Shown piece after piece: positions 21,728 through 36,986 of a stretch of DNA of 64,000 bases (position 1 is its first letter; every line of letters begins with the position of its first letter). The notes below the pieces were generated by a model. That model was given only the letters and a program-made list of their open reading frames with translations, was not told the DNA's origin and made no database searches. The DNA comes from Methanolobus sp. WCC4. GTDB lineage: Archaea; Halobacteriota; Methanosarcinia; Methanosarcinales; Methanosarcinaceae. Made by a program: the position numbers and the translations under genes. Location of the stretch: NCBI RefSeq assembly GCF_038022665.1, contig NZ_CP150629.1, positions 1,718,480 to 1,782,479 on the forward strand, in the 5' to 3' direction.

Positions 21728-22555
21728 TCAGGACAAAGGCCTGAGTTCAAGATCAGGATCTTCACTCCTGTCCTTCAAAAATAGATCTATGTTATGGTCT
21801 ATGGTCTCAAGGTGGAGTCCTTTCATCTGTCCCTGGATGCCCAGTCTTTCCTGCACTGTGGTTGGTGGGAAGTAAGCAAGATATGCGAGTACCGTACCTA
21901 TGAGAACGAACAGTCGTGCAAACATCTGCATTGCATCCACTATTGCTATCATGTCTGTAAGCATGAAATCAAAGACAAAAGATATTGCTACAAGTGGAAG
22001 TGCGGTTCTGTAGCGTATCCTCTTTGGCATTCTTTGAAGGAATATGAGCAACAAAAGACCAAGTATCATTGAAGTGGGTATGACAAAGAGTCCCATAAGG
22101 TACAGGTTTATGGCAGCATCACTATTGATCATAAAGATGGATCCCCACTCTGTAACTATGGGTCCTACTATCCCGCTACTGTAAAGGAATGCAAGATATA
22201 GTCCTCCTACAAAAGTGAACACCAGTGAAGTATATTCTCCTATCTTCGTGCTTCCTGTGATCACATAGATTATAAAGAATACCAGTGGTACGGAAATAAA
22301 GGCAAATGGGACTGCTGCGATGAAGTATAATATAGCATCCATTTCCTGGTTACCTGAATAGGCGGCAAACATCCTGATCGTTGTAGGCAGGTAGGTCATG
22401 GCTACAATTATCCAGAAAACAATAAGTGAAAAAAGAGCAGGTCTGCTATTCTCTTTGTATCGATCCTTATTTCTGGATAGTACCCAGGCAAATGCTAGGG
22501 ATGATAGTGTGATTGCGAAACATATTGTGCCATTTAACAGGAGTCCTGGATTCAT
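21728..22555 (-). CDS. Seven-helix membrane protein, archaellin-linked paralogue 1
   Basis: A 275-residue integral membrane protein with about seven helices starting at residue 5, and a charged cytoplasmic tail of about 45 residues. The strongest blocks are YLPTTIRM near 57, SVPLVFFIIYVI near 95, SIFMINSDAAINLYLMGLFVIPTSMI near 142, and QRMPKRIRYRTALPLVAISFVFDFMLTDM near 175-203. I do not recognise the family. It is clearly paralogous to 25201-26001, and both copies are divergent from an archaellin gene, which implies a link with the archaellum. The tail differs between copies. Confidence 0.85.
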   Translation of the reverse strand: MNPGLLLNGTICFAITLSSLAFAWVLSRNKDRYKENSRPALFSLIVFWIIVAMTYLPTTIRMFAAYSGNQEMDAILYFIAAVPFAFISVPLVFFIIYVITGSTKIGEYTSLVFTFVGGLYLAFLYSSGIVGPIVTEWGSIFMINSDAAINLYLMGLFVIPTSMILGLLLLIFLQRMPKRIRYRTALPLVAISFVFDFMLTDMIAIVDAMQMFARLFVLIGTVLAYLAYFPPTTVQERLGIQGQMKGLHLETIDHNIDLFLKDRSEDPDLELRPLS

Positions 22556-22625
22556 CTATGTCCTTTTATCCTATTAGATCTATTTTATTTATATATTTTC
22601 ATTGTGTATTTGTTACTTGTTTGTT

Positions 22626-22658
22626 GTTTGACATTTCCAACCAAATGGTATATATATT
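22626..22658 (+). promoter_or_regulatory. Archaellin promoter, copy 1
   Basis: The element GTTTGACATTTCCAACCAA (22626-22644) directly precedes a TATA box (GGTATATATATT, 22647-22658). The same arrangement with one base change recurs before the third archaellin gene (26080-26111). Predicted initiation is near 22680, giving a leader of about 40 bases with a GAGGAGGA ribosome binding site. Confidence 0.65.
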
Positions 22659-22718
22659 ATTCATTACTATAATAGTAATATATCCAAAAATAGTAGGATA
22701 TAACGAGGAGGATCGTAC

Positions 22719-23525
22719 ATGAAAGCAAACAAAGTATTACACATGAAAAAAGACACCAGAGCTCAGGTGGGTATTGGTACTCTTATCATATTCATCGCAA
22801 TGGTTCTAGTCGCAGCAGTCGCTGCTGCCGTATTGATTCAGACTTCCGGTACCCTTCAGCAGAAGGCACAATCCACCGGTAAGCAGGCAACTCAGGAAGT
22901 TTCATCCAACCTGATGGTCAAGACCATCGAAGGTGTCCGTGCTAAGAACTCATCAACAGAGATGTCTGACACAGTTGACCTTCTTAAGCTCAAAGTAGGC
23001 CTTAATGTCGGCAGTTCTCCTGTAGATGTCAATCAGGTAGTTGTTTCTATTACTGATGGTACAACAGCAAACAACCTTGTTTATGCAGGTAACACAAAAT
23101 CCTATGCATCAGCTGGTGCTTCAAATGGAAGTATGGGTTACTTTGGAGACAGTGCATCAGATAATCTGGTGACTCTTTTGACAAACCAGACAACAATTGT
23201 TAGTGATACACTCGTAAACTCTCAGAAATATTATACAGTTGAGAAGATACGTGATGAAGATGCATCTTTCTCTCAGGCTAATCCTGTAATGAATACTGGT
23301 GATCTTATTACTTTGTATATTGCTACAACAGCAGACACAGCCGTAAATTATCAATCAGTAGGATCATCTAATGTTTCAGCAGGACTTGATGATTCCGGAC
23401 TTAATCTTGTTCCGAGGACAACAGTTAATATCGTCCTGACCCCTGAATCCGGTGCAGCAACCACTGCAGACTTCGTAGCTCCTTCATCCTATGGTGTAAA
23501 GGAGACTGTACAGCTATATCCATAA
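22719..23525 (+). CDS. arlB: Archaellin, copy 1
   Basis: A 268-residue archaellum filament subunit. A short basic leader ending in KKDTRA is followed by the class III processing site and the hydrophobic assembly helix QVGIGTLIIFIAMVLVAAV, then SGTLQQKAQSTGKQAT, which is typical of methanogen archaellins. The outer domain has several N-glycosylation sequons (NSS, NGS, NQT, NVS). The C-terminus ends in LYP, as in all four copies here. It differs from the copy at 26168-26974 at only about four residues. The ribosome binding site is GAGGAGGATC. A hairpin separates it from the second archaellin. Confidence 0.96.
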   Translation: MKANKVLHMKKDTRAQVGIGTLIIFIAMVLVAAVAAAVLIQTSGTLQQKAQSTGKQATQEVSSNLMVKTIEGVRAKNSSTEMSDTVDLLKLKVGLNVGSSPVDVNQVVVSITDGTTANNLVYAGNTKSYASAGASNGSMGYFGDSASDNLVTLLTNQTTIVSDTLVNSQKYYTVEKIRDEDASFSQANPVMNTGDLITLYIATTADTAVNYQSVGSSNVSAGLDDSGLNLVPRTTVNIVLTPESGAATTADFVAPSSYGVKETVQLYP

Positions 23526-23534
23526 TGAATCATT

Positions 23535-23558
23535 AATGTGCAATTCCATTTGCACATT
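23535..23558 (+). promoter_or_regulatory. Intercistronic hairpin between archaellins 1 and 2
   Basis: AATGTGCAA and TTGCACATT form a perfect nine-base-pair stem with the loop TTCCAT, followed by a short T-run. It lies ten bases past the first archaellin stop. An equivalent stem with different sequence lies at the same place in the second cassette, so it is probably a partial terminator or RNA-stability element setting the expression ratio. Confidence 0.6.
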
Positions 23559-23576
23559 TTTAAGAGGTGTTAATAT

Positions 23577-24359
23577 ATGAAAGCAAACAAAACTTCATTC
23601 AATATGGATACAAAAGCTCAGGTTGGTATCGGTACCCTTATTATTTTCATTGCAATGGTACTTGTTGCTGCTGTTGCTGCAGCGGTTCTTATACAGACTT
23701 CAGGAACACTTCAGCAGAAGGCACAGTCAACTGGTAAACAGGCAACCCAGGAAGTATCTTCCAATCTGATGGTAAAGTCGATAGAAGGTGTAAGGGCCAA
23801 AGATAATGCTACAAGTATGGCTGACAATGTTTCCCTTCTTAAGATGAAGGTTGGCCTTAATGTAGGTAGTTCTCCTGTAGATATGAATCAGGTGGTAATC
23901 TCCATTACTGATGGTACTACTACTAATAACCTGATCTATGCAAACAATGAACAGACCTATAGTTCTGCAATGGCGAACTTTAGTAGTAGCAATAATGCAT
24001 CAGCAAATCTGGATGAGCTTTTAACGGATACTCAGTCTACTCCTGGGGATAATGCAAAATATTTCTTTACTGTAGAGAAGATCCGTGATGAAGATGGTTC
24101 ATTCACGCAGGGCGAACCTGTTATGAACACTGGGGATCTTATTATCATCTATATATCTACTGTGACAACAGGTGATACTGCATATGATCTGGTAGGCTCT
24201 TTGGATGTCAGTGCTGCTATGAAGGAGACTGGTCTTTTAATAAGCCCAAGGACCTCTGTAAGTCTGGTGCTCACTCCAGAGGCTGGAGCAGCAACAAGTG
24301 CAGACTTTGTCACTCCATCTTCCTATGGAACAGTGGAAACAATACAGCTCTATCCATAA
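23577..24359 (+). CDS. arlB: Archaellin, copy 2
   Basis: A 260-residue archaellin with the same processing site (DTKAQVGIGTL), assembly helix and SGTLQQKAQ segment as its neighbour. The outer domain diverges between about residues 105 and 215, with NFSSSNNAS sequons. It ends ETIQLYP. It is the second gene of an archaellin pair and probably a minor or region-specific filament subunit. AGAGGTG precedes the ATG. A strong terminator overlaps its stop codon. Confidence 0.95.
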   Translation: MKANKTSFNMDTKAQVGIGTLIIFIAMVLVAAVAAAVLIQTSGTLQQKAQSTGKQATQEVSSNLMVKSIEGVRAKDNATSMADNVSLLKMKVGLNVGSSPVDMNQVVISITDGTTTNNLIYANNEQTYSSAMANFSSSNNASANLDELLTDTQSTPGDNAKYFFTVEKIRDEDGSFTQGEPVMNTGDLIIIYISTVTTGDTAYDLVGSLDVSAAMKETGLLISPRTSVSLVLTPEAGAATSADFVTPSSYGTVETIQLYP

Positions 24360-24386
24360 GGTGATTGATTCACCTTATCTTTTTTA
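24358..24386 (+). terminator. Terminator overlapping the stop of archaellin 2
   Basis: AAGGTGA (24358-24364) pairs with TCACCTT (24370-24376) over a five-base loop and is followed by ATCTTTTTT. The stem begins within the stop codon of archaellin 2. It closes the first cassette. Confidence 0.7.
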
Positions 24387-24845
24387 TTTATTCTGTGACT
24401 TTTTGTTCTATTCTAACTAATGCCACATCTTTTCATATATTGACCATTATAGTGTTGGTCATTGCTTACTTCAAAGCCAAACTTCCAATTGTTTACTGCT
24501 TTGTATTTTTGTGAAGTTTAAAAGTGGATTTGTCCTATAACATTCCTGCTACTGATCATTTCTCTTTAGGGGGCAGGGTATTATTCACTCAGAAATGTTA
24601 GTTATTACTTCGATAAGAGTTATCGTTCACCAATATGTTGTTTCGAGTAAGTATTTCTTCCAATGGCCTAATAAACTCTCTGAAACGTGACTGGCTATAT
24701 TGTTGCAGTCTAAAGATGTCTGGTTTATGCAGTTATTTCAGTGATGCCTCTTCTGGTTATCTTTCTTAGCACTTTAAAAAGGATATGTGTAGGGGGTAGT
24801 CTCACATATTGTGGGAAGTGAATGCTGGGTATAAAATAGGATTAT
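24387..24845. other. Non-coding spacer between archaellin cassettes
   Basis: No start-to-stop frame of note. On the minus strand a 44-codon open stretch (24598-24732) lacks a usable start and could be a gene remnant or chance. No terminal repeats were seen that would mark a mobile element. It is the junction between the two cassettes. Confidence 0.5.
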
Positions 24846-25208
24846 CTATGGCATTCTTTCGATAATCTCATCCATTCTCTTTGTCTTTTTATAGAATGCA
24901 TTGCTGTCCTTGAGGAAATTATATGCGGTCACTCCTTTGTCTGTGATAGCATATCCGCCTCGTTTGACCTTCTCTACAAGTCCTTCAAGCTGGAACACTG
25001 TTTTCATTTTGCTGCCAATGCTTCCTTTGTCAGCAAACTGGTCAGTGTACTTCCTGATCTCTGAGAATTCTGTGATCTTTCCTTCATTCTTCCCAAGTAC
25101 TCTCAGTATGATCCTGTATTGCATATCTCCTGGTCCCTGGTGTATTCCCAGGGATTGGTAGAACTCAGCAACCTTTTGCTCGTACTCTACATCAATATCT
25201 TCAGACAT
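24846..25208 (-). CDS. Winged-helix protein coupled to the seven-helix gene
   Basis: About 120 residues starting MSEDIDVEYEQ at 25208, overlapping the upstream seven-helix gene stop by eight bases. Residues 30-100 read as a winged helix-turn-helix: MQYRIILRVLGKNEGKI, SIGSKMKTVFQLEGLVEKVKR as recognition region, and GGYAITDKGVTAYNFL as wing and last helix. It may be a DNA-binding regulator or a cytoplasmic adaptor of the membrane protein. The first cassette lacks an equivalent gene, since trpC lies there instead. Confidence 0.75.
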   Translation of the reverse strand: MSEDIDVEYEQKVAEFYQSLGIHQGPGDMQYRIILRVLGKNEGKITEFSEIRKYTDQFADKGSIGSKMKTVFQLEGLVEKVKRGGYAITDKGVTAYNFLKDSNAFYKKTKRMDEIIERMP

Positions 25209-26001
25209 CGATATCATCCTCACTCTCGATATCGTCATCGATGTCATCTTCAAGTTCATATAATTCGTAAGAGTATTTTTTTATCCCCAATTTTTCCTGA
25301 AGGGTCAATGGTGGGAAGTAAGCAAGGAATGCCTGTACTGTCCCTATCAATACAAATATCCTTGCTGCAAGCTGCATGGCGTCCACCAGGGTTATCATGT
25401 CCGTGAGCATGAAATCAAAAACAAAGGAGATTGCTACAAGTGGTAATGCGGTTCTGTATCTCAATCGTTTAGGCATGCGTTGAAGGAATATGAGGAATAG
25501 GAGTCCTATTATCATTGCTGTAGGTATGACAAAGAGTCCTATCAGGTAGATATTAATTGCAACATCACTATTGATCATGAATATTGATGAGAATGTCGAT
25601 ACTTCCGGCCCTATCACTCCCTGTGTGTAAAGAAACACAAGGTATGAAACACCGAAGAGAACAAAGAGCATTGATGTATATGCGCTTATCTTTTTGTCGC
25701 CTACGATAACATACATTATAAAGAATACAAGTGGCACTGTCACAAATGAGAATGGTATGATAGAGAGGTTATACATCATAAAATCAAGTGTTGGCATATC
25801 CAAATATGCAGCGATCATTCTCACTGTTGTGGGGAGATATGTAAGCCCTACAAGTGACCATAGGATCACAAGTGCCCAGAGCGCAGGTTTACTTTTGTCT
25901 GAATGCTCATGCTCACTACGGGCAAGTACCCATGCAAAAGCAAATGATGATATTGTGATTGCAAAACATATGGTTGCATTCAGTAGTAATCCTGCTGTCA
26001 T
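25201..26001 (-). CDS. Seven-helix membrane protein, archaellin-linked paralogue 2
   Basis: A 266-residue paralogue of 21728-22555 with the same helix layout and the same blocks: TYLPTTVRM, VPLVFFIMYVI, SIFMINSDVAINIYLIGLFVIPTAMI, and QRMPKRLRYRTALPLVAISFVFDFMLTDM. The tail is much more acidic, ending DDIDDDIESEDDIDV. It is divergent from archaellin 3 and coupled to a winged-helix gene. The conserved helix interior suggests a receptor- or channel-like function, but no family is recognised. Confidence 0.85.
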   Translation of the reverse strand: MTAGLLLNATICFAITISSFAFAWVLARSEHEHSDKSKPALWALVILWSLVGLTYLPTTVRMIAAYLDMPTLDFMMYNLSIIPFSFVTVPLVFFIMYVIVGDKKISAYTSMLFVLFGVSYLVFLYTQGVIGPEVSTFSSIFMINSDVAINIYLIGLFVIPTAMIIGLLFLIFLQRMPKRLRYRTALPLVAISFVFDFMLTDMITLVDAMQLAARIFVLIGTVQAFLAYFPPLTLQEKLGIKKYSYELYELEDDIDDDIESEDDIDV

Positions 26002-26079
26002 CTAATCCCTCTCGTGCATATTTTATTTATACATTGTTAATATATAATACTTGCCGGTCTTTGGTTATCAAAGTTTGCT

Positions 26080-26111
26080 GTTTGATATTTCCAACCAATT
26101 ATTATATATAT
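26080..26111 (+). promoter_or_regulatory. Archaellin promoter, copy 2
   Basis: GTTTGATATTTCCAACCAA (26080-26098) precedes a TATA box (TTATATATAT, 26102-26111). It matches the upstream element of archaellin 1 at 18 of 19 positions, while most of the flanking DNA differs. That conservation suggests a regulator or extended BRE site. Confidence 0.65.
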
Positions 26112-26167
26112 CAGCACATGTTATATAAAAACATCCATATAATTTGGATTTTATAGGAGGATCTTAC

Positions 26168-26974
26168 ATGAAAGCAAACAAAGTCCTACATATGAAAAAA
26201 GACACCACGGCTCAGGTGGGTATTGGTACCCTTATCATATTCATCGCCATGGTTCTTGTTGCAGCAGTCGCTGCTGCCGTATTGATTCAGACTTCCGGTA
26301 CACTTCAGCAGAAGGCTCAGTCCACAGGTAAGCAGGCAACTCAGGAAGTATCATCCAACCTGATGGTAAAGACCATCGAAGGTGTCCGTGCTAAGAACTC
26401 ATCAACAGAGATGTCTGACACAGTTGACCTTCTTAAGCTTAAAGTTGGCCTTAATGTTGGCAGTTCTCCTGTAGATGTCAATCAGGTAGTTGTTTCTATT
26501 ACTGATGGTACAACTGCAAACAACCTCGTTTATGCAGGCAACACTAAATCCTATGCATCAGCTGGTGCTTCAAATGGAAGCATGGGTTACTTTGGAGACA
26601 GTGCAGCAGATAATCTGGTGACTCTTTTGACAAACCAGACTACAATTGTTACTGATACACTCACAAACTCTCAGAAATACTATACAGTAGAGAAGATACG
26701 TGATGAAGATGCCTCATTCTCTCAGGCTAATCCTGTTATGAACACTGGTGACCTTATTACATTGTATATTGCTACAACAGCCGATACAGCTGTAAATTAT
26801 CAGTCAGTAGGATCGTCCAACGTTTCTGCAGGACTTGATGATTCCGGACTTAATCTTGTTCCAAGGACAACAGTCAATATTGTCCTGACCCCAGAATCAG
26901 GTGCAGCAACAACAGCAGACTTCGTAGCTCCTTCATCTTATGGTGTAAAGGAGACCGTACAGCTATATCCATAA
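26168..26974 (+). CDS. arlB: Archaellin, copy 3 (near-identical to copy 1)
   Basis: A 268-residue archaellin almost identical to the product of 22719-23525; the visible changes are R to T, S to A, S to T and V to T. Many codons differ synonymously, so the protein is conserved although the DNA has diverged. The start at 26168 follows AGGAGGATCTTAC; the frame extending to 26144 is not used. It carries the same leader, assembly helix and glycosylation sequons. It is first of the second archaellin pair. Confidence 0.96.
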   Translation: MKANKVLHMKKDTTAQVGIGTLIIFIAMVLVAAVAAAVLIQTSGTLQQKAQSTGKQATQEVSSNLMVKTIEGVRAKNSSTEMSDTVDLLKLKVGLNVGSSPVDVNQVVVSITDGTTANNLVYAGNTKSYASAGASNGSMGYFGDSAADNLVTLLTNQTTIVTDTLTNSQKYYTVEKIRDEDASFSQANPVMNTGDLITLYIATTADTAVNYQSVGSSNVSAGLDDSGLNLVPRTTVNIVLTPESGAATTADFVAPSSYGVKETVQLYP

Positions 26975-27026: not shown

Positions 27027-27806
27027 ATGATGTCTGTTCCTGATATCTTTTCAAAGAATGATGTAGCTCAGGTCGGCATAGGTACTCTTATCATATTCAT
27101 TGCCATGGTGCTGATCGCAGCAGTGGCGGCCTCTGTACTGATACAGACTTCCGGTACGCTTCAGCAGCAGGCACAATCCACAGGTAAACAGGCAACTCAG
27201 GAAGTTTCCTCAAACCTTGTGGTAAAAAGCATTGAAGGTGTTCGTGGAAAGACTTCGGGCAACCTTTCAGGCAACGTGTCCTTGCTAAAGATCAAAGTGG
27301 GCTTGAATGTTGGTAGTTCTGCGGTCGACCTGAATCAACTTGTTATCAGTATCACTGATGGGGTCAATACCAATGATCTTCTATACGGGTATAATGATAA
27401 GACCTATGGTAGTGCTATGGACAATTTCTCATCGTCCGCTTCCTATGATGTGAATCTCGCCTATCTCCTGAATGGTACTCAAAGTGATCCCGGGACAAAT
27501 GGCCAGTATTTCTTTACAGTTCAGAAGATACGTGATGAAGATGGTTCATTCTCTCAGGGCAATCCTATTATGACTACCGGTGACCTGGTGACTATCTATG
27601 TATCTGCTGTTTCAGATGGGGATCTTTCCTACAATGAGATCAATGGGATAAGTGTCAGTGGAGAGCAAAAGGATTCTAATCTGGATATAGGAACGCGTGC
27701 GACTGTTAGTATGGTCCTGACACCTGAAGCCGGGGCTACTACAATTGCAGAATTTGTAACACCATCATCATTTGGTACAAAGGAAACGATCGCATTATAT
27801 CCATGA
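27027..27806 (+). CDS. arlB: Archaellin, copy 4
   Basis: A 259-residue archaellin with a shorter, different leader (MMSVPDIFSKNDVAQ) before the assembly helix VGIGTLIIFIAMVLIAAV. It aligns along its whole length with archaellin 2 (YGSAMDNFSSS, LLNGTQSDPGTNGQYFFTV) and is the more diverged of the second pair. It ends ETIALYP. AGGAG precedes the ATG. A T-rich tract after the stop (GTTTTTTATTCTTTT) is a likely terminator. Confidence 0.95.
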   Translation: MMSVPDIFSKNDVAQVGIGTLIIFIAMVLIAAVAASVLIQTSGTLQQQAQSTGKQATQEVSSNLVVKSIEGVRGKTSGNLSGNVSLLKIKVGLNVGSSAVDLNQLVISITDGVNTNDLLYGYNDKTYGSAMDNFSSSASYDVNLAYLLNGTQSDPGTNGQYFFTVQKIRDEDGSFSQGNPIMTTGDLVTIYVSAVSDGDLSYNEINGISVSGEQKDSNLDIGTRATVSMVLTPEAGATTIAEFVTPSSFGTKETIALYP

Positions 27807-27870: not shown

Positions 27871-28560
27871 ATGTCAAAAAGAAGTTTCTTTTTAATCGTT
27901 ATCTGTTTGCAGCTATGCTTTGTACTGACTGCATCAGGTGAAGCTACTTTTTCAAATGATGTAGTTATTTCTGATGATTCTGTGAACTTTATAATACTTG
28001 AGAATTACTCAGGTGTAGATGCTGAAGTACTCCGAAGTGGACTGGATGTAAATGGTGACGGATCAGTGAATTCATCAGAAGTTGATGATTTTGTTGATCT
28101 GTTCCTTGATGGCAGGAAGTATCAGTATCTGGGTTATATTTTGCTCGATAATGATGAAATGGCTTTATCGTTAGGTTCTTTCAATATGGAATTCAATGAT
28201 GCTGAAGGAAACGTTAATACTTCAGATATGTCAGTAAAGGTAAGTGTTGACTACAGAATGAACAATTCATTGACCAAAGGTGATCACAATCTTTGGGTTC
28301 TTGGTCATCCGTCCATTAGTGATATGAAAGTTACGCTTCCTGAGGGTGCACTGCTTCTTTCATATGATGGGATCGAAAGTCCGGTCATTGGTTCAGAGGG
28401 CAGAAAGGTTGTAATTGAAGGTTCAAGTGGTATTCGCTCTTTTATGGTAGATGATCGTCTTACATATGAGTATGCAGTTTCGATCGACTTCAGAATATCT
28501 CAATTTATCGCAGACCTGTCAGTCTTCGATAATTTCTTTTCTACACACCACTTTCTTTAA
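27871..28560 (+). CDS. Secreted protein with an EF-hand-like motif
   Basis: A 229-residue protein with a signal peptide (MSKRSFFLIVICLQLCFVLTASG). Near residue 60 the sequence DVNGDGSVNSSE matches the DxNxDGxxxxxE calcium-binding loop found in dockerins and EF-hands. No second loop is visible, so this is not a full dockerin. The rest is beta-rich and unrecognised. There is no lipobox and no C-terminal anchor. It lies 64 bases after the last archaellin with its own ribosome binding site (GAGGGAATTAG). Confidence 0.7.
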   Translation: MSKRSFFLIVICLQLCFVLTASGEATFSNDVVISDDSVNFIILENYSGVDAEVLRSGLDVNGDGSVNSSEVDDFVDLFLDGRKYQYLGYILLDNDEMALSLGSFNMEFNDAEGNVNTSDMSVKVSVDYRMNNSLTKGDHNLWVLGHPSISDMKVTLPEGALLLSYDGIESPVIGSEGRKVVIEGSSGIRSFMVDDRLTYEYAVSIDFRISQFIADLSVFDNFFSTHHFL

Positions 28561-28692
28561 ATTATAATCATTTTATACAATGGCAATGAATATAATTAAG
28601 TACTATTGTTGCATTATATAGCTTTATTAATATTAATTAAACATTACTTAATTACTATCTAGCCATAAACGCATTTCATTTCAGGTGTTCGA

Positions 28693-29646
28693 ATGACTTC
28701 CAGATATTCATCAATAGTTCTTATATTCATGGTCATAGTTTCTGTATTAGGCAGTGGTTGTTCCAGTAGCTCTCCTGAGGAAGGAGCATCTGATATGGTG
28801 GTGACCTTTTTGAATGCTATCAATGATGGTGATTTTAACACTGCATATTATCATTATCAGGGGAAGGATTTTCTTGCTGTGGCAAGCGTTGAGATGATCT
28901 TCGACAATAAAGGAATTGAACCCGGTGGGATAAAGGATATCGAGATAACTGCTTTGAATGTTTCCGGGAACCTTGCAGTAGCAACTGCTGAGTGCAGTGT
29001 TTCTGCTTTTGACCAGATGGGTAATCTGGCAGATACTACAACTACAATTCCTGTCTACTTCAGATTGCAGAACAGTGACCTGGGCTGGATCGTTACAAGG
29101 GTCGCTTTCAATGAACCATTGACTATCGATGAGGCTGATCTTGTGGATATTGAGGTTGCCTCTACTCCTATAGATTCTATAGCTGACAATGCGCCGGTCA
29201 TATCTGTGTTTGCATTTGCTCTGCTTGGTGCCGGTATCTACCTGGACCGTAAGGACAAGGCAAAGAAAAAGGAGGCCAGCAGAACAGTAGATGTTTCTGG
29301 TGCAACTCCGATACAGAAGGAGTCCATAGCTCAATACGTCAGGTTCGTTCCTGCTCAGGGTATAACTGTAGGAAAAGCTACGAGTGTTGATGTATGGGTC
29401 AAGAACTTTACCCAGGAGCCCTATGAGAACTTTGCGATAAAGGCAAAATTCGGTACTGCTCTTGAGGCAGATAAAGAGAACCTGTTCTTTGATACTATTG
29501 CTCCCGGTGAAACCGTGAAAAGGACATGGATAGTAAAGCCTAAAGTTGCTGGCTGGGCATCGATCGAAGAGCCTACTGTGGTTTTCGATTACATGGGTAC
29601 AAAGTATATTGGTGTGCTTGATCCTGTGTGGCTCCAGGTTCAATGA
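28693..29646 (+). CDS. Membrane-anchored lipoprotein with CARDB-like C-terminal domain
   Basis: A 317-residue protein. Residues 1-24 are a signal ending in the lipobox VLGSGC. Residues 30-150 (MVVTFLNAINDGDFNTAYYHY...) look like a small cone-fold, DUF4878-like domain. A hydrophobic segment near 168-186 (APVISVFAFALLGAGIYL) is followed by a KDKAKKKE stop-transfer. The last 110 residues (VRFVPAQGITVGKATSVDVWVKNF...PGETVKRTWIVKPKVAG) resemble a CARDB/Ig-like beta-sandwich. Its stop overlaps a micro-gene by four bases, which is followed directly by the deacetylase gene, so it appears to start that operon. Confidence 0.75.
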   Translation: MTSRYSSIVLIFMVIVSVLGSGCSSSSPEEGASDMVVTFLNAINDGDFNTAYYHYQGKDFLAVASVEMIFDNKGIEPGGIKDIEITALNVSGNLAVATAECSVSAFDQMGNLADTTTTIPVYFRLQNSDLGWIVTRVAFNEPLTIDEADLVDIEVASTPIDSIADNAPVISVFAFALLGAGIYLDRKDKAKKKEASRTVDVSGATPIQKESIAQYVRFVPAQGITVGKATSVDVWVKNFTQEPYENFAIKAKFGTALEADKENLFFDTIAPGETVKRTWIVKPKVAGWASIEEPTVVFDYMGTKYIGVLDPVWLQVQ

Positions 29647-29735
29647 ATTTTAAGACGATGAATGGTATTTACGGCATTTACGATATTTATGAAATTAGCA
29701 GTATTTACGATATTTGCAGTATTCAAGGGCGATAA
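29643..29735 (+). CDS. 30-residue tripeptide-repeat micro-gene
   Basis: The ATG at 29643 overlaps the previous stop (ATGA), and the frame ends at TAA 29733-29735, two bases before the deacetylase ATG. After MNFKTMN the product is seven tripeptides of the form x-I-Y/S/C/Q (GIY, GIY, DIY, EIS, SIY, DIC, SIQ), encoded by a nine-base period in the DNA. It has no signal sequence. It could be a real peptide, a translation-coupling spacer, or a simple repeat that happens to be open. The overlap on both sides favours translation. Confidence 0.4.
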   Translation: MNFKTMNGIYGIYDIYEISSIYDICSIQGR

Positions 29736-29737
29736 GG

Positions 29738-31759
29738 ATGTCATCGGAGAATAGCGACAAGGATCCCTCATCAAAACCCTCATCTTCTGATCTGATGAAA
29801 AAGCTGAATGATGCTTTTTCTTCTTATCTGGATGGAGATGGGTCAACTGCCGGGCCAGATAGCATATCTGAAAAAGAATCCCTCCTGGAGCTTGTACGTT
29901 CAGAGATAGCTGAAAAACAGGCTCATATGGAAGGGAATTCCGATGAGGATGTTGTCGCAGAGGATCCGGTCACTGCTATTGAAGGAGTTATTGATCCTGA
30001 AAATGATCGACCGGCCATTTCAGAGATAAAAGATACTGAAGCCATTGTAGATATTGAGACATCGGAGGTATTGGAAACACCTGTAGTTCCGGATGCTCTG
30101 TCAGGTGTCTTTGATGATGTTCAGTATCAATCTGTGGATATCGAAGTAACCGAAGATGAAGGTCCGACCGAAGATGAAGATGAAGGACGTTATTCCGAAG
30201 TCATATCCGATATTCTGAAAAAGAAACCTAAAACAACATCTGCTCCTGCTTCAGTTACTAAAAATGAGCATTTGTCTGATATTCTCTCCGGGACCGAGGA
30301 CGAACCATCGGTTGAAGAAAAGGTTCCCGATCCTGATATCAAATTGAAAGGAACTGGAAATGACTTTGTGCCTGTTGAGATGCCAGCAAAAGAAGATGAA
30401 GGAACACCTGTCATGATCAAACCTGAGTTCAGGAAAACTCTTTTGAAGGACGACAGTTCGAGACCTGTTCCATCTTTCGTAGATAATACTCCAAAAGATA
30501 AGCCAAAAGTATCTGTTGTCAAAAAAAGTGAACCTGCTGAAAAGGTCGAAAAGCCAGATATCCGCCGGCCTTCTTCAGTTCCTTCTTCTGAACCATTACC
30601 TGAACCTATTCAAAAGAAAGATGTTCGATCTGTTCAAACTTCTCAGGAGAAGGCCGAAGAAGTCGTATTTGATACACCTGATATTGCTTTCCTTTACAAC
30701 AAGGACCACACAAGCCATGATGCTGCTTCCCTTTCCATGAACACTCATGAGAAACCTGAACGTATTATCAAGGCCATGTGGTATCTGGAAAAGAGTAAGG
30801 TCTTTGAGGATGGTACATGCACGCTTCTCAATGACTTCGAGATGGCGGATGAATCCGATCTTTTGAGGGTGCATGATGAATCCTATATCTCTTTCGTTCG
30901 CAACTATGCGAGTTCAGGAGGGGGTTTCCTTGGTGACAGCACTTATATGACACCAACTTCCTATGATATTGCCAAGATGGCAGCGGGTGCAGCTATAAAG
31001 GCCGGCGATCTGCTGGTAGATAAGGAATATTCCCATGCATTCGTGCTGGCACGTCCGCCGGGGCACCATGCCAGTTCCCAGAAGTATGGAGGTTTCTGTC
31101 TTTTCAATAATGCAGCAGTTCTTGCAAGATACCTGCAAAAGTGCAGGAACGTCAGGAAAGTTTTGATACTTGACTGGGACGCCCATGCAGGCGATGGTAC
31201 GATGGAGATCTTCTATGAGGACCCTACAGTTATGTTCCTGTCAACTCACCGTGATCCTCACGGGTTCTATCCACGTAAAGGCTTCAGTACACAGATCGGG
31301 GAGAATGCAGGTAAAGGGTACACTCTGAATGTCGAGATGCCTGAAGGTTCCGGCAATGAGGAATACATGCTGGCCTTTGATGAGGCCATCATACCCATGA
31401 TACGTCATTTCTCACCTGATTTCCTGATAGTGAGCTGCGGTTTTGATGCATACTATAAAGAAAAGAACATCGGCCTGGCTCTTGATTCTGAAGGTTATCA
31501 TCAGTTGACCACAAAGGTGCGCTCGGTATTCGATGGTCCGATGGTCTTCCTTATGGAAGGTGGTTATCACGATTCCAATGGCCAGTTGTGCCATAGTGTC
31601 CTTAATTCCCTTCACGGCAAACCAAATCCTGTAAGTGACCGTCAGGAGATGTCAAGTTATAAGGTGACCCAGCAAAAACAGATATTCGAGCAAACGAAGA
31701 AAAAAGTAGAGGAATCGAAAAAGCATAGTCCGGTACTTTCTTCACAGGTGTCCCAATGA
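29738..31759 (+). CDS. Histone-deacetylase-family enzyme with long acidic N-terminal region
   Basis: About 673 residues. The first 310 or so are acidic, Ser/Pro/Lys-rich and low-complexity with no fold signature. The C-terminal 340 residues are a zinc-dependent class II/AcuC-type deacetylase: RPPGHHA near residue 438 (catalytic His pair), LDWDAHAGDG near 478 (zinc Asp and His), CGFDAY near 566 (second zinc Asp), and MEGGYHD near 605 (transition-state Tyr). All active residues are present. Substrates in this family include acetyl-lysine proteins and acetylpolyamines. The start at 29738 follows AAGG; a TTG at 29714 is less likely. It overlaps the next deacetylase gene by four bases. Confidence 0.9.
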   Translation: MSSENSDKDPSSKPSSSDLMKKLNDAFSSYLDGDGSTAGPDSISEKESLLELVRSEIAEKQAHMEGNSDEDVVAEDPVTAIEGVIDPENDRPAISEIKDTEAIVDIETSEVLETPVVPDALSGVFDDVQYQSVDIEVTEDEGPTEDEDEGRYSEVISDILKKKPKTTSAPASVTKNEHLSDILSGTEDEPSVEEKVPDPDIKLKGTGNDFVPVEMPAKEDEGTPVMIKPEFRKTLLKDDSSRPVPSFVDNTPKDKPKVSVVKKSEPAEKVEKPDIRRPSSVPSSEPLPEPIQKKDVRSVQTSQEKAEEVVFDTPDIAFLYNKDHTSHDAASLSMNTHEKPERIIKAMWYLEKSKVFEDGTCTLLNDFEMADESDLLRVHDESYISFVRNYASSGGGFLGDSTYMTPTSYDIAKMAAGAAIKAGDLLVDKEYSHAFVLARPPGHHASSQKYGGFCLFNNAAVLARYLQKCRNVRKVLILDWDAHAGDGTMEIFYEDPTVMFLSTHRDPHGFYPRKGFSTQIGENAGKGYTLNVEMPEGSGNEEYMLAFDEAIIPMIRHFSPDFLIVSCGFDAYYKEKNIGLALDSEGYHQLTTKVRSVFDGPMVFLMEGGYHDSNGQLCHSVLNSLHGKPNPVSDRQEMSSYKVTQQKQIFEQTKKKVEESKKHSPVLSSQVSQ

Positions 31760-32832
31760 TCAATGTTGGCCTTACGTTCAATGAGAATCACCATCTTCAT
31801 GATTCAAAGCTGAATGGTTTTCCATGTCCTGAGAATCCATCAAGGTTGAAGGGTATTCTGGACTATCTTGAAAGCAGTGATCTGGTCGATGGTGAAAGGT
31901 GTTGTTTCTATAGTTCTGAACCTGCTTCGTTAAAGGATATACTGCGTGTTCATGATGTAAGATATATCGATCATCTGAAAGCATGCACAAAGGATAGTGC
32001 GCTAAGCCCGGGAAATGATGTATACGTTTGTCCTTCATCGCTGGATGTAGCTTTACAGGCATTGGGATGCGTTCTGAATTCCGGGGATCTGGTAGCCAGG
32101 GGGAAGTGCACTCATTCTTTTGCGCTGGTGCGTCCGCCTGGTCATCATGCGGCTTCTGAGGCTTCAAGTGGATTCTGTCTTTTCAATAATTCCGGTATAC
32201 TTGCCAGATATCTCCAGAAGACATACGGGCTTGAGAGGATCGCAATATTCAATATCGATGCCCATGCATCAGATGGGACCTATTCGGTGTTCGAAGATGA
32301 TCCCGATGTGCTTTGCATATCTGTTCATCAGGATCAGTCGACCCTGTATCCTCATAAGGGTTTCATCCGTGATATTGGAGTAAGGCCTGCACTTGGTCTT
32401 TGCATCAATATGGAAATGCCACCTGAAGCAAGCAATCCTGAATATGGGATATTCTATGATGAGATTGTGGAAAAGGTTCTGGAGAAGTTCAATCCTCAAT
32501 TGGTCATACTTGAGTGTGGTTTTGATGCTTACCACAAGGAACCTTTGACCAGATTGAACCTGACAATTAATGGCTACTACAGAATAATATTTAAACTTGC
32601 AAGTAAATGGAACGTTGTATCGCTACTTGAAGGTGGCTATCATGATGACCTTGGTCTTCTGACATCCGTCGTCATTCGTGCATTGCTTGGAATGGATAAC
32701 GTTAAGGATGATGTTGACCTGATCGATCTGCTTGCTTCAAGGCATGCAGGCACAAGGAAGGATTTCGACAAAAATCTCTCAAACCTGAAGATGAGGCTGG
32801 AGTCCTACTGGGGACCGTGGAACCATATTTAA
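31756..32832 (+). CDS. Second histone-deacetylase-family enzyme
   Basis: A 358-residue stand-alone deacetylase paralogous to the domain just upstream. RPPGHHA near residue 125, NIDAHASDG near 166, CGFDAY near 253 and LEGGYHDD near 295 preserve the His pair, the zinc ligands and the Tyr. The N-terminus starts directly with the catalytic fold (MINVGLTFNENHHLHD). It is translationally coupled to the first enzyme (ATGA), which suggests equal amounts and perhaps a heterodimer. A GNAT acetyltransferase gene follows after 30 bases. Confidence 0.92.
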   Translation: MINVGLTFNENHHLHDSKLNGFPCPENPSRLKGILDYLESSDLVDGERCCFYSSEPASLKDILRVHDVRYIDHLKACTKDSALSPGNDVYVCPSSLDVALQALGCVLNSGDLVARGKCTHSFALVRPPGHHAASEASSGFCLFNNSGILARYLQKTYGLERIAIFNIDAHASDGTYSVFEDDPDVLCISVHQDQSTLYPHKGFIRDIGVRPALGLCINMEMPPEASNPEYGIFYDEIVEKVLEKFNPQLVILECGFDAYHKEPLTRLNLTINGYYRIIFKLASKWNVVSLLEGGYHDDLGLLTSVVIRALLGMDNVKDDVDLIDLLASRHAGTRKDFDKNLSNLKMRLESYWGPWNHI

Positions 32833-33979: not shown

Positions 33980-34567
33980 ATGGCTCAAGAGCAGGGAATT
34001 GCAAAAGTAGATCTGACTTACATTTATAAAGCAGTAATGATGGGAACCTCCCTTTATTCAGATAACTGGGAGAAGGGTGTCCTCTATCTTACCAACCTCA
34101 ACCTGTGGTTCTCAGAGGGTGGTGGATGGTTGACCATTCCATTGAAAAACGTCACGATGGTAGGGAGGGAAGTGACCGACCCGATCCGCATGAAAGCCCA
34201 GCGGACAATTGGTACTTCACACATCCTGTTGATAGACTATCTCCAGCCATCATCGGTAGTAGAAGGAGCAACAGCATCAGCCACAGCATTACTGGCAGGT
34301 AACGAAGCGATAATAAGCACGCTCAAAGCCTATCTGCAGCCTATGTGCGGCACACCACCTAAGAAACAATCCCTTTCTGACGTTGACAAGAAGCTCCTTT
34401 ACATGCTGTCCACAGGAGTTAACGACCTGCAAAAGCTCGTTTTCTTCATCGGTGTAGATAACGAGACACTGGCAAACAGTTTCAAGAATCTGAGGGAACA
34501 GGGCCTGTGCGACACTTCAGGAACGCTTACAGAACAGGGTCACAAACAGATCAGGGAGATGATGTGA
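33980..34567 (+). CDS. CheF-like PH/winged-helix protein
   Basis: A 195-residue protein. Residues 15-115 have a PH/GRAM-like pattern (EKGVLYLTNLNLWFSEGGGWLTIPLKNVTMVGREV), and residues 130-195 form a winged helix (KKLLYMLSTGVNDLQKLVFFIGVDNETLANSFKNLREQGLC). This layout matches the CheF family (DUF439), which links the chemotaxis machinery to the archaellum motor in Euryarchaeota. Context downstream of archaellins supports that. No CheA, CheY or receptor genes are in the window, so it might act in a different signalling chain. Confidence 0.65.
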   Translation: MAQEQGIAKVDLTYIYKAVMMGTSLYSDNWEKGVLYLTNLNLWFSEGGGWLTIPLKNVTMVGREVTDPIRMKAQRTIGTSHILLIDYLQPSSVVEGATASATALLAGNEAIISTLKAYLQPMCGTPPKKQSLSDVDKKLLYMLSTGVNDLQKLVFFIGVDNETLANSFKNLREQGLCDTSGTLTEQGHKQIREMM

Positions 34568-34600
34568 AATGGATATGATCATAAAGATGGAGGTATACGA

Positions 34601-35518
34601 ATGACCGACCCGGGCCTTCCTCCATTTATGCAGAATTCAGGCGGTGGCGGACCACCTTCAATGTCCGAAGGTAGTTTCGGTCAGTCAATGGGTGCCTTTG
34701 GTGCTTTGCTGAAATTACAGCAGAACATCAGCGAAAGGTTCCCACGGTCCAAAGTACCGTGGAGCGAGACCAGAAAGTTCCTCAAAGCTATCAGCATCGA
34801 TGGGATCAGGTCAACTTCTCTTTATAAATTCCACATGGACTTCTTCAAGGAGATCGGTCTTGGCAGCATGCAGCTGATCTCATATGCGCCGATGCATTAC
34901 ATCTACGCTGTTCCCAATAATCCGGTATGTAACTTCTATCCTGCACTCAACAACCAGAAGGTCTGTGTTGCCACTACGGATGCGCTTCACCGTTTCTTCA
35001 GGGAAGAACTCGAGCTTGAATGTTCGGTCGAGGAAACAGAGTGTATCAAGAACGGGGACCCTGTGTGCAAGTTCAAGGTCGACCTTCAGCCGATCTCTGC
35101 ATATCAGGTAATGCTGGATAAGAATGACAAGATGATCCTTTCCGGTGTAAGACCACCTGTGGAGCAGGACGAGCTCATGGAACGTGTGAAGGCACTTACC
35201 GTTTACAAGCTTCTGGAAAAGGGTAAGCTCTCTGAGATAGGCAGTGCTTACATGCAGTTCGCAAGCAGTATGAATGTAGAGGAAAAGGTATTCGATCCGC
35301 CATGGAAGCTCAAGGAGGAACTATCCTCCATCGCTGAGACCCATAATACATTTGGTGGTGCTTTTGGTGAGATGGCCAATAAGATACAGGCAGAACAGTC
35401 TCCTGCACCGGCGGCCCCGAAACCAGCTGTCTCCGAAGAAACTAAGAAACTGCAGGAAGAGGCTAAAAAGACAGACAGCTTTGCCGAACTCCTTGCTAAA
35501 ATGAAAAAGAATGAGTAG
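34601..35518 (+). CDS. V4R-domain protein
   Basis: A 305-residue protein. A Gly/Pro/Ser-rich N-terminus of about 35 residues is followed by a V4R (vinyl-4-reductase-like) small-molecule-binding domain at about 55-185, with the typical VEETECIKNGDPVCKFKV cysteine-containing end. The last 110 residues are helical and end in an Ala/Lys/Glu-rich coiled segment. V4R domains act as ligand sensors or assembly modules. The ribosome binding site is GGAGG. It lies 33 bases after the CheF-like gene in the same operon. Confidence 0.75.
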   Translation: MTDPGLPPFMQNSGGGGPPSMSEGSFGQSMGAFGALLKLQQNISERFPRSKVPWSETRKFLKAISIDGIRSTSLYKFHMDFFKEIGLGSMQLISYAPMHYIYAVPNNPVCNFYPALNNQKVCVATTDALHRFFREELELECSVEETECIKNGDPVCKFKVDLQPISAYQVMLDKNDKMILSGVRPPVEQDELMERVKALTVYKLLEKGKLSEIGSAYMQFASSMNVEEKVFDPPWKLKEELSSIAETHNTFGGAFGEMANKIQAEQSPAPAAPKPAVSEETKKLQEEAKKTDSFAELLAKMKKNE

Positions 35519-35526
35519 TGATACAA

Positions 35527-35892
35527 ATGGCAGGTTACAGATCAGCTTCACACAATGATCATCTGGGAGAATTTATTGGTGAGTTCATAAGGGTGATCAC
35601 ATACAACTCTCATTACAGGGGCGAGTGCGTAAGGATCGATCCCAATAACAACAATGTGCTCTTAAAAGGTGTCGTTAAGAAGAACGAGACCGGATGGATG
35701 GATATCAGTGAAAGCATGGTAATAATGGGACATTCCATAGAATCAGTATACATAGAGAAGAGTTTTCCTTTTGACAGTAATGAATCCCTTGTGCTCTCTA
35801 TCGAGGATGGTTCACTTCATCCAGGCTCAGAGCCGGAGATGCAGGGATCTGATATCATGGGTGACATGGAATTTCCGGAGGAATTTAAATGA
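35527..35892 (+). CDS. LSm-like small protein
   Basis: About 121 residues. GEFIGEFIRVITYNSHYRGECVRIDPNNNNVLLKGVVKKNE (residues 12-52, shown only as pattern) has the strand order of an Sm/LSm SH3-like barrel: a Gly-containing second strand, xIDxxxNNVxL, then further strands through MVIMGHSIESVYIEK. The C-terminal 35 residues are acidic. Its role could be RNA binding or protein scaffolding. The start is ATG 35527 or GTG 35518, the latter overlapping the previous stop. Its stop overlaps the KaiC-like gene by four bases. Confidence 0.65.
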   Translation: MAGYRSASHNDHLGEFIGEFIRVITYNSHYRGECVRIDPNNNNVLLKGVVKKNETGWMDISESMVIMGHSIESVYIEKSFPFDSNESLVLSIEDGSLHPGSEPEMQGSDIMGDMEFPEEFK

Positions 35893-36986
35893 GCGGCGAA
35901 AAAAGGATACCAACCGGCATTGCAGGTCTTGACAGGGTAATTGAAGGTGGTGTACGTGATAATACGACACTTCTTGTCGTAGGATCAAGTGGTACCGGTA
36001 AATCTACTTTTGCAATGCAATATCTTAATTATGGTCTTGAACACGGGGAGAATGGTCTGTACATTAGTATGGAAGAGCCTCCTGAACAGATCATGCGTGA
36101 AGCAAAGATGTTAGGATTCAATCTTGATAAATACTATAATAAAGAGTTATTCTTCTTTCACTCAAAGGGTAAGGATTTTGTAAAGCTCGTAGATGAGCAG
36201 TTGCCTGCACTTGTGGAAGCGAACAAGAACTATTCGGTGAAGACCCGTGTCATCATCGACCCGCTGACACCTCTGATATGGGCCATACAGGACAAACAGG
36301 AACAGCGTGAGATCATCACAAAGCTTTTCTATACATTGAAGCAGCTTGGGCCTGTTCTGATCACAACGGAAGAACATGCAGCTCCGGGTGAGACCATTGG
36401 TGAGGATGTACTCATCCCTATCTACATGTCAGATGGTGCGGTCCACCTGACATACAGGCCGATCGGAGGTGCGTTTAACAGGGCGCTTGAGATCGTTAAG
36501 ATGCGTGCCACAAGACATGGTGAAGAGGTCTATCCTTACATATTCGTCCGTGGTGTGGGTGTTGTTGTTAGGACGACCCCGCTGGTATCTGCTGAGGATC
36601 TGCGCAAGTATGATGATGTGTTCGATAAGGCCATCAGGACCGCTGCAGATATCGGAGCCAGCGAGCGGATGCTGGAACGCCTTGTCTATGTCAAGGAGAA
36701 CTGGTCCTATCCGTTCTCTCCAAAGGAAACCCTTCAGATATTCTTCGAATCCCAGGGTCTCAATGATGCTGTGACCAGAGAGGAGCTTGCGAAGAGAAGA
36801 GAGATCGAAGCTAGCTCTCCGGAGACCAATCTTGATATAGCTGAAATTACCGGTGGGACATTACAGGTAGAAGACGAAGTTGTCATGCCGGATTTCCAGG
36901 ATGATGCGGTTGTTTCTGATCCGGAAGGCGAAGAAGGTCTTATTGAGATAGACAGCCTGAGCGAGCTGGAAGAACTGGTCCAATGA
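35889..36986 (+). CDS. KaiC/RAD55-like RecA-fold ATPase
   Basis: A 365-residue ATPase. IPTGIAGLDRVIEGGV opens the fold. Walker A is VVGSSGTGKSTF (residues 31-42), ISMEEPPEQIM near 62 resembles the KaiC catalytic-glutamate region, and Walker B is RVIIDPLTPL near 122. A C-terminal extension of about 110 residues is helical and then acidic (QDDAVVSDPEGEEG). It has a single RecA domain, unlike cyanobacterial KaiC. It is coupled to the LSm-like gene and 18 bases from the Roadblock gene. It is not ArlH, being longer and different in sequence. Confidence 0.85.
   Translation: MSGEKRIPTGIAGLDRVIEGGVRDNTTLLVVGSSGTGKSTFAMQYLNYGLEHGENGLYISMEEPPEQIMREAKMLGFNLDKYYNKELFFFHSKGKDFVKLVDEQLPALVEANKNYSVKTRVIIDPLTPLIWAIQDKQEQREIITKLFYTLKQLGPVLITTEEHAAPGETIGEDVLIPIYMSDGAVHLTYRPIGGAFNRALEIVKMRATRHGEEVYPYIFVRGVGVVVRTTPLVSAEDLRKYDDVFDKAIRTAADIGASERMLERLVYVKENWSYPFSPKETLQIFFESQGLNDAVTREELAKRREIEASSPETNLDIAEITGGTLQVEDEVVMPDFQDDAVVSDPEGEEGLIEIDSLSELEELVQ

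Follow-up and report, generated by a model that had tools for sequence, protein, structure and literature searches.

Little is known of how methanogens of the order Methanosarcinales and their relatives decide whether to make archaella, since most of what has been learned about the regulators of this filament comes from Methanococcus, Pyrococcus, Haloferax, and Sulfolobus. In Methanolobus sp. WCC4 two related genes for membrane proteins stand next to archaellin genes, which arrangement raises the question of whether they take part in that decision; an earlier note had considered either a membrane sensor controlling archaellin expression or an assembly factor. The features of the window, i.e., the whole stretch of 64,000 nucleotides that was analysed, with the names used below for the membrane proteins (TM_A and TM_B) and for the winged-helix protein (wHTH), are the following:

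21728-22555, minus strand: TM_A, seven-helix membrane protein of 275 aa, a paralogue of TM_B with no wHTH gene of its own
22619-22642, plus strand: element A, GTTTG (22619-22623) and GTTTGACATTTCCAACC (22626-22642), ahead of a TATA box at 22649-22656
22719-23525, plus strand: archaellin, gene 1 of the pair divergent from TM_A
23577-24359, plus strand: archaellin, gene 2 of the pair divergent from TM_A
24846-25208, minus strand: wHTH, winged-helix protein of 120 aa, the proposed archaellin regulator
25201-26001, minus strand: TM_B, seven-helix membrane protein of 266 aa, the proposed sensor or receptor
26073-26096, plus strand: element B, GTTTG (26073-26077) and GTTTGATATTTCCAACC (26080-26096), ahead of a TATA box at 26103-26110
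26168-26974, plus strand: archaellin, gene 1 of the pair divergent from TM_B, start ATGAAAGC at 26168
27027-27806, plus strand: archaellin, gene 2 of the pair divergent from TM_B

Both TM genes are, as the earlier note had it, divergent from an archaellin gene (22719-23525 and 26168-26974, each with an Arch_flagellin match at an E of about 1e-29), and the long conserved blocks reported as common to the two proteins (SIFMINSD... and QRMPKR...) are present in both. TM_A and TM_B, 65% identical over 241 aa (E 4e-119), lie inside a tandem duplication of about 2.35 kb with a DNA identity of 76.6%, each copy of which contains two archaellin genes; the genome (2.85 Mb) holds no further TM copy and a single wHTH gene. 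The ORF finder had placed the start of the 26168-26974 archaellin at a TTG at 26144, and had listed the wHTH as 24846-25259, for which ORF the likelier start is 25208 (MSEDIDV...); with that start the beginning of the wHTH gene overlaps the stop of TM_B by 8 nt (ATGTCTGA). The motor genes arlF, G, H, I, and J are elsewhere on the contig, at about 26-31 kb, away from the archaellins, so that the filament and motor genes are split.

The surroundings of the archaellins contain other conserved genes. Downstream, at 27871-29646, two proteins of 229 and 317 aa without family assignment, the longer of which is lipoprotein-like, follow the archaellins in an order kept across the Methanosarcinaceae, and a filament-associated role is possible for both. 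Two adjacent genes judged by eye to be histone-deacetylase-like are situated 3' of the archaellins at 29714-32832, also in an order kept in related genomes, and a conserved cluster of a V4R-domain protein, a wHTH-containing protein, and a KaiC-like ATPase lies beside the archaellin locus at 33980-36986.

Across the 238 genomes of the class, Arch_flagellin genes were present in 139 and TM in 71, all 71 of the latter being among the former. The homologues of TM did not prove to occur mostly away from archaellin genes: an archaellin was found within 1.5 kb in 73 of the 79 distinct assessable copies, these and all other counts being drawn from related species and therefore not independent. The six remaining copies comprised four in family f4, one in family f6, and one in the locus L027, where two TM-wHTH units stand in tandem and the TM of the second is the exception. 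In f4 the TM-wHTH pair stands beside a gene judged by eye to be GlpX-like with no archaellin nearby, and in f6 it has no visible archaellin neighbour, in both of which families the wHTH still comes next to the unlinked TM.

The pairing itself was close to strict. The wHTH directly followed TM in 67 of the 79 copies, and the other 12 were all second copies; within an even, phylum-wide sample of 393 genomes, 38 had a strong TM match and 37 a strong wHTH match, the two sets differing in a single genome (G139, where only a TM_A-type copy was present and the contig ends beside it). The sole extra strong wHTH match belonged to G149, itself a TM genome, in which a wHTH gene without an adjacent TM is flanked on one side by trp genes and on the other by an archaellin-like gene divergent from it (L188:2301-4095), in what looks like the ancestral location; any wHTH match outside the TM genomes was disregarded as too weak. 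Because TM_A and TM_B formed two separate clades in the tree, with the same species in both, their duplication is older than the divergence of these Methanolobus species. This tree, the pairing in 67 of 79, and the restriction of the exceptions to second copies together indicate that the ancestral unit was most likely TM followed by wHTH, and the wHTH-less copy a duplicate; thus the coupling of one copy to a winged-helix protein described in the earlier note is real for TM_B, but was understated there.

The AlphaFold2 model of TM agreed with the earlier prediction of seven helices (pLDDT 86.2, pTM 0.82) and contained a hairpin between helices 4 and 5 as well as a disordered C-terminal tail, acidic by charge count. 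The charge distribution predicts an N-out/C-in topology, the third inner loop being the most basic (mean 3.7 K+R) and the tail the most acidic (7.3 D+E), while conservation was highest in helices 5 and 6. The sequence comparisons with Pfam, NCBIfam, and PDB returned chance-level matches only. The best structural neighbours were GPCRs and microbial rhodopsins (Foldseek E 3e-3; top Z 15.3 with an rmsd of 3.6 over 213 residues, a Z of 15 being close to the stated noise level near 14 and within the chance range of helical bundles). TM is predicted to be a GPCR/rhodopsin-like seven-helix bundle, which likeness is a common arrangement and not evidence for descent. We considered two more specific identities. 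A microbial rhodopsin, which we rejected, would need a retinal-binding lysine in helix 7, which neither TM_A nor TM_B has, a lysine in that stretch being limited to three distant f3 members. A relationship to HisKA_7TM had been suggested by eye from the hairpin before helix 5 and a likeness of motifs, but gained no support when profiles were compared: hhalign gave a probability of 0.1%, no better than that of reversed or rotated controls, with a profile from just 7 sequences.

For its part, the wHTH had no significant match in Pfam or NCBIfam. Its AlphaFold2 model (pLDDT 92.5) was a winged helix in which the wing is followed by one long C-terminal helix (residues 93-121), the nearest structure being that of Archaeoglobus AF1382 (Z 10.7, rmsd 1.9 over 86 residues), with MarR proteins at a Z of about 10. 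As modelled, the protein thus has the features of a MarR/PadR-type winged helix extended by a long C-terminal helix.

When 65 TM-archaellin gaps were aligned, strong conservation appeared upstream of the archaellin TATA box, where a 24-bp element, GTTTGnnGTTTGAnATTTCCAACC, is followed by 6 bp and then by TATATATA. The 17-bp core of the element was exact in 42 of the 65 gaps and present with up to 3 mismatches in 61, against 5 of 1,300 shuffled gaps at the same threshold. This core forms an imperfect palindrome of 16 bp, GTTTGANA|TTTCCAAC, which symmetry fits the expectation for a dimeric winged helix, and a third half-site, GTTTG, precedes it by 7 bp. In the 2.85 Mb of the Methanolobus genome the exact core occurs twice only, at 22626-22642 and 26080-26096, both within TM-archaellin gaps, and we found no copy with one mismatch elsewhere in that genome, nor the element at its three other archaellin-family genes or at the motor operon arlF-J (L102:2207-7303; order arlJ, I, H, G, F). 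As this operon, which occupies a part of the chromosome far from the archaellins, does not carry the element, the filament and motor genes appear to be regulated separately.

The element also remained with the archaellins when the genes were rearranged. In the 238 genomes we counted 58 exact copies, spread over 40 genomes, and every one of them immediately precedes an archaellin gene and is oriented toward it. TM was present in 38 of these 40, the other two being fragmentary f4 genomes whose sister genomes have TM; among archaellin-bearing genomes the exact element was thus found in 38 of the 71 with TM versus 2 of the 68 without, the p-value of 4e-12 for this association overstating the independence of what are related genomes. 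Six f4 genomes have an exact copy, and in each of them the element precedes the archaellin operon, though the TM-wHTH pair is elsewhere; in L120, a locus from outside the class where archaellin and wHTH are convergent, it is still at the archaellin promoter; and in most f5 genomes, where TM, wHTH, and archaellin run in the same direction, a variant, GTTAAGAATTT(A/G)CAACC, is found at the archaellin's own promoter and is absent before TM. This persistence at archaellin promoters argues that the element is not a mere mark of a shared divergent gap. The f4 operons (L131-L136) themselves consist of up to four tandem archaellin genes after the single exact element, which genes, at about 310-410 aa, are above the usual size.

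In genomes without TM, the archaellin promoters that we examined did not contain the element, the best candidates having 5-8 mismatches (G008, G043, G049, G074, G150, G095, and others); those of G008, G043, G049, and G074 belong to the same archaellin subtype. The archaellin promoters of G049 (family f5; L156 and L171) have another block, TTTTTCACACCTTTTTCACAACTT, repeated upstream of their TATA boxes, which may be the site of another regulator. In the genus Methanosarcina we found neither TM nor an element linked to archaellins. Two further Methanolobus genomes that seemed to have archaellins and neither TM nor element (G133 and G128) were uninformative, their archaellin operons starting at contig ends. 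In turn, TM and wHTH are present in genus g12 (G147 and G149) with a diverged site (GTTAAAnnAATCAAACC), and in the f6 genomes with no site within one mismatch.

The idea of a membrane sensor controlling archaellin expression hence receives good, though indirect, support from the conserved linkage, from the strict TM-wHTH pairing, and from an operator-like element that is unique in the genome to archaellin promoters and is kept there when the pair is elsewhere. We consider it fairly probable that TM is a sensor by which the wHTH is controlled, and that the latter binds the element and switches, probably activating, archaellin transcription. The wHTH, probably as a dimer, would bind the palindrome plus the GTTTG half-site just ahead of the archaellin BRE/TATA, at the spot where archaeal activators such as EarA aid the recruitment of TFB, and its effect there would most likely be activation, as that of EarA is in Methanococcus. 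TM, in its predicted N-out/C-in orientation, would sense a signal, perhaps a ligand, outside the cell or in the membrane, and through its inner loops or tail might contact the wHTH so as to hold, release, or modify it. Given a site at each of the two promoters and a single wHTH gene in the genome, TM_A would be a second receptor copy, probably acting on the same wHTH as TM_B; and the orphan wHTH beside the archaellin-like gene of G149 fits the wHTH as the DNA-facing part. The f4 pair, not being beside archaellins, suggests that TM-wHTH may have other targets as well.

With the sign reversed, the wHTH would repress archaellin transcription and TM would relieve that repression, which variant we hold to be somewhat doubtful. 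Many MarR/PadR proteins repress, and a protein occupying a site that abuts the BRE could block TFB; that position immediately before the BRE, though, is one from which archaeal activators act (EarA, PMC5512572; the CsmR model, PMC13286277). A different reading would keep the wHTH as regulator of the archaellins and make TM a co-expressed accessory of the archaellum, involved in assembly, archaellin insertion, or filament anchoring rather than in sensing. The adjacency of 73 of the 79 copies to archaellins, the TM_A copies without wHTH, and the lone wHTH of G149 would all suit it, but the wHTH is nearly always present in TM genomes and still follows TM in f4 and f6, where no archaellin is linked; moreover, 68 of the 139 archaellin-bearing genomes of the class have no TM, and TM is therefore not generally required for assembly. 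The assembly factor of the earlier note gained no specific support. We regard this accessory role as unlikely.

We judge it quite unlikely that the element is the site of an unlinked, EarA-like archaellum regulator or an extended BRE, with TM-wHTH doing something else. The element does abut the BRE/TATA, and EarA, known here by its description only, works from just ahead of the BRE in Methanococcus (PMC5512572). The absence of the element from other promoters of the same genome, however, speaks against a general BRE, and its distribution follows that of TM-wHTH, down to its absence from the examined promoters of TM-less relatives; the EarA sites, in addition, are described as four 6-bp sequences, versus a 24-bp dyad element here. 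Another factor with the same distribution as the pair could likewise own the site.

Returning to the sensor and regulator, we think it fairly likely that the two genes together work as a sensory switch for the genes of the archaellum filament in the Methanosarcinales and some related lineages. We advance more tentatively, at rather less than even odds, a full path from a GPCR/rhodopsin-like receptor to a dedicated wHTH and on to the filament promoters, with TM_A and TM_B feeding one regulator and neither kinase nor second messenger involved; if true, it would add a simple, kinase-free signalling layout to the archaea. A specific candidate regulator, DNA site, and receptor can in any event now be named for a lineage important in methane cycling, and we found no description of the TM-wHTH pair in the open-access literature.

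Known systems resemble the pair in part. EarA of Methanococcus and Pyrococcus, also a winged-helix protein, regulates the archaellum from immediately before the BRE (PMC5512572, PMC10665913), which position the wHTH would share; as described, however, EarA is a single soluble protein for which no membrane partner is reported, and its sites in M. maripaludis are four separate 6-bp sequences upstream of the BRE (PMC5512572), in contrast to one dyad element plus half-site. CsmR of Haloferax volcanii, which controls archaellation, is likewise a small wHTH protein encoded beside archaellin genes (PMC13286277), but it is Lrp/AsnC-like with a C-terminal beta-sandwich dimer domain, whereas our model has only a long helix after the wing. 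The HisKA_7TM histidine kinases (PF16927, present in this genome) have a prokaryotic seven-helix sensor domain as well, though fused to a kinase and with no profile similarity to TM detectable by a profile from 7 sequences.

The closest parallels in mode of action combine a membrane part with a DNA-binding one. ArnR and ArnR1 of Sulfolobus acidocaldarius are membrane-bound one-component archaellum activators at the archaellin (flaB) promoter (PMC6396743), and so share membrane-linked HTH control aimed at that promoter; there the HTH and the membrane part form one polypeptide, whereas here TM and a soluble wHTH are separate ORFs. The LytTR Regulatory Systems of Streptococcus mutans (HdrRM and BrsRM) join a regulator to a membrane inhibitor and have repeats placed shortly ahead of the promoter (PMC6193735), being thus a comparable two-gene unit, if TM does control the wHTH; their regulator is of the LytTR family, no LytTR domain matching any of 32 wHTH members in a Pfam scan, and their sites are at the promoter of their own operon, for autoregulation, instead of at that of the archaellins. 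One defining feature of each of these two systems was thus looked for and found to be absent, for which reason we propose that TM-wHTH may work like ArnR or the LytTR Regulatory Systems while being a member of neither.
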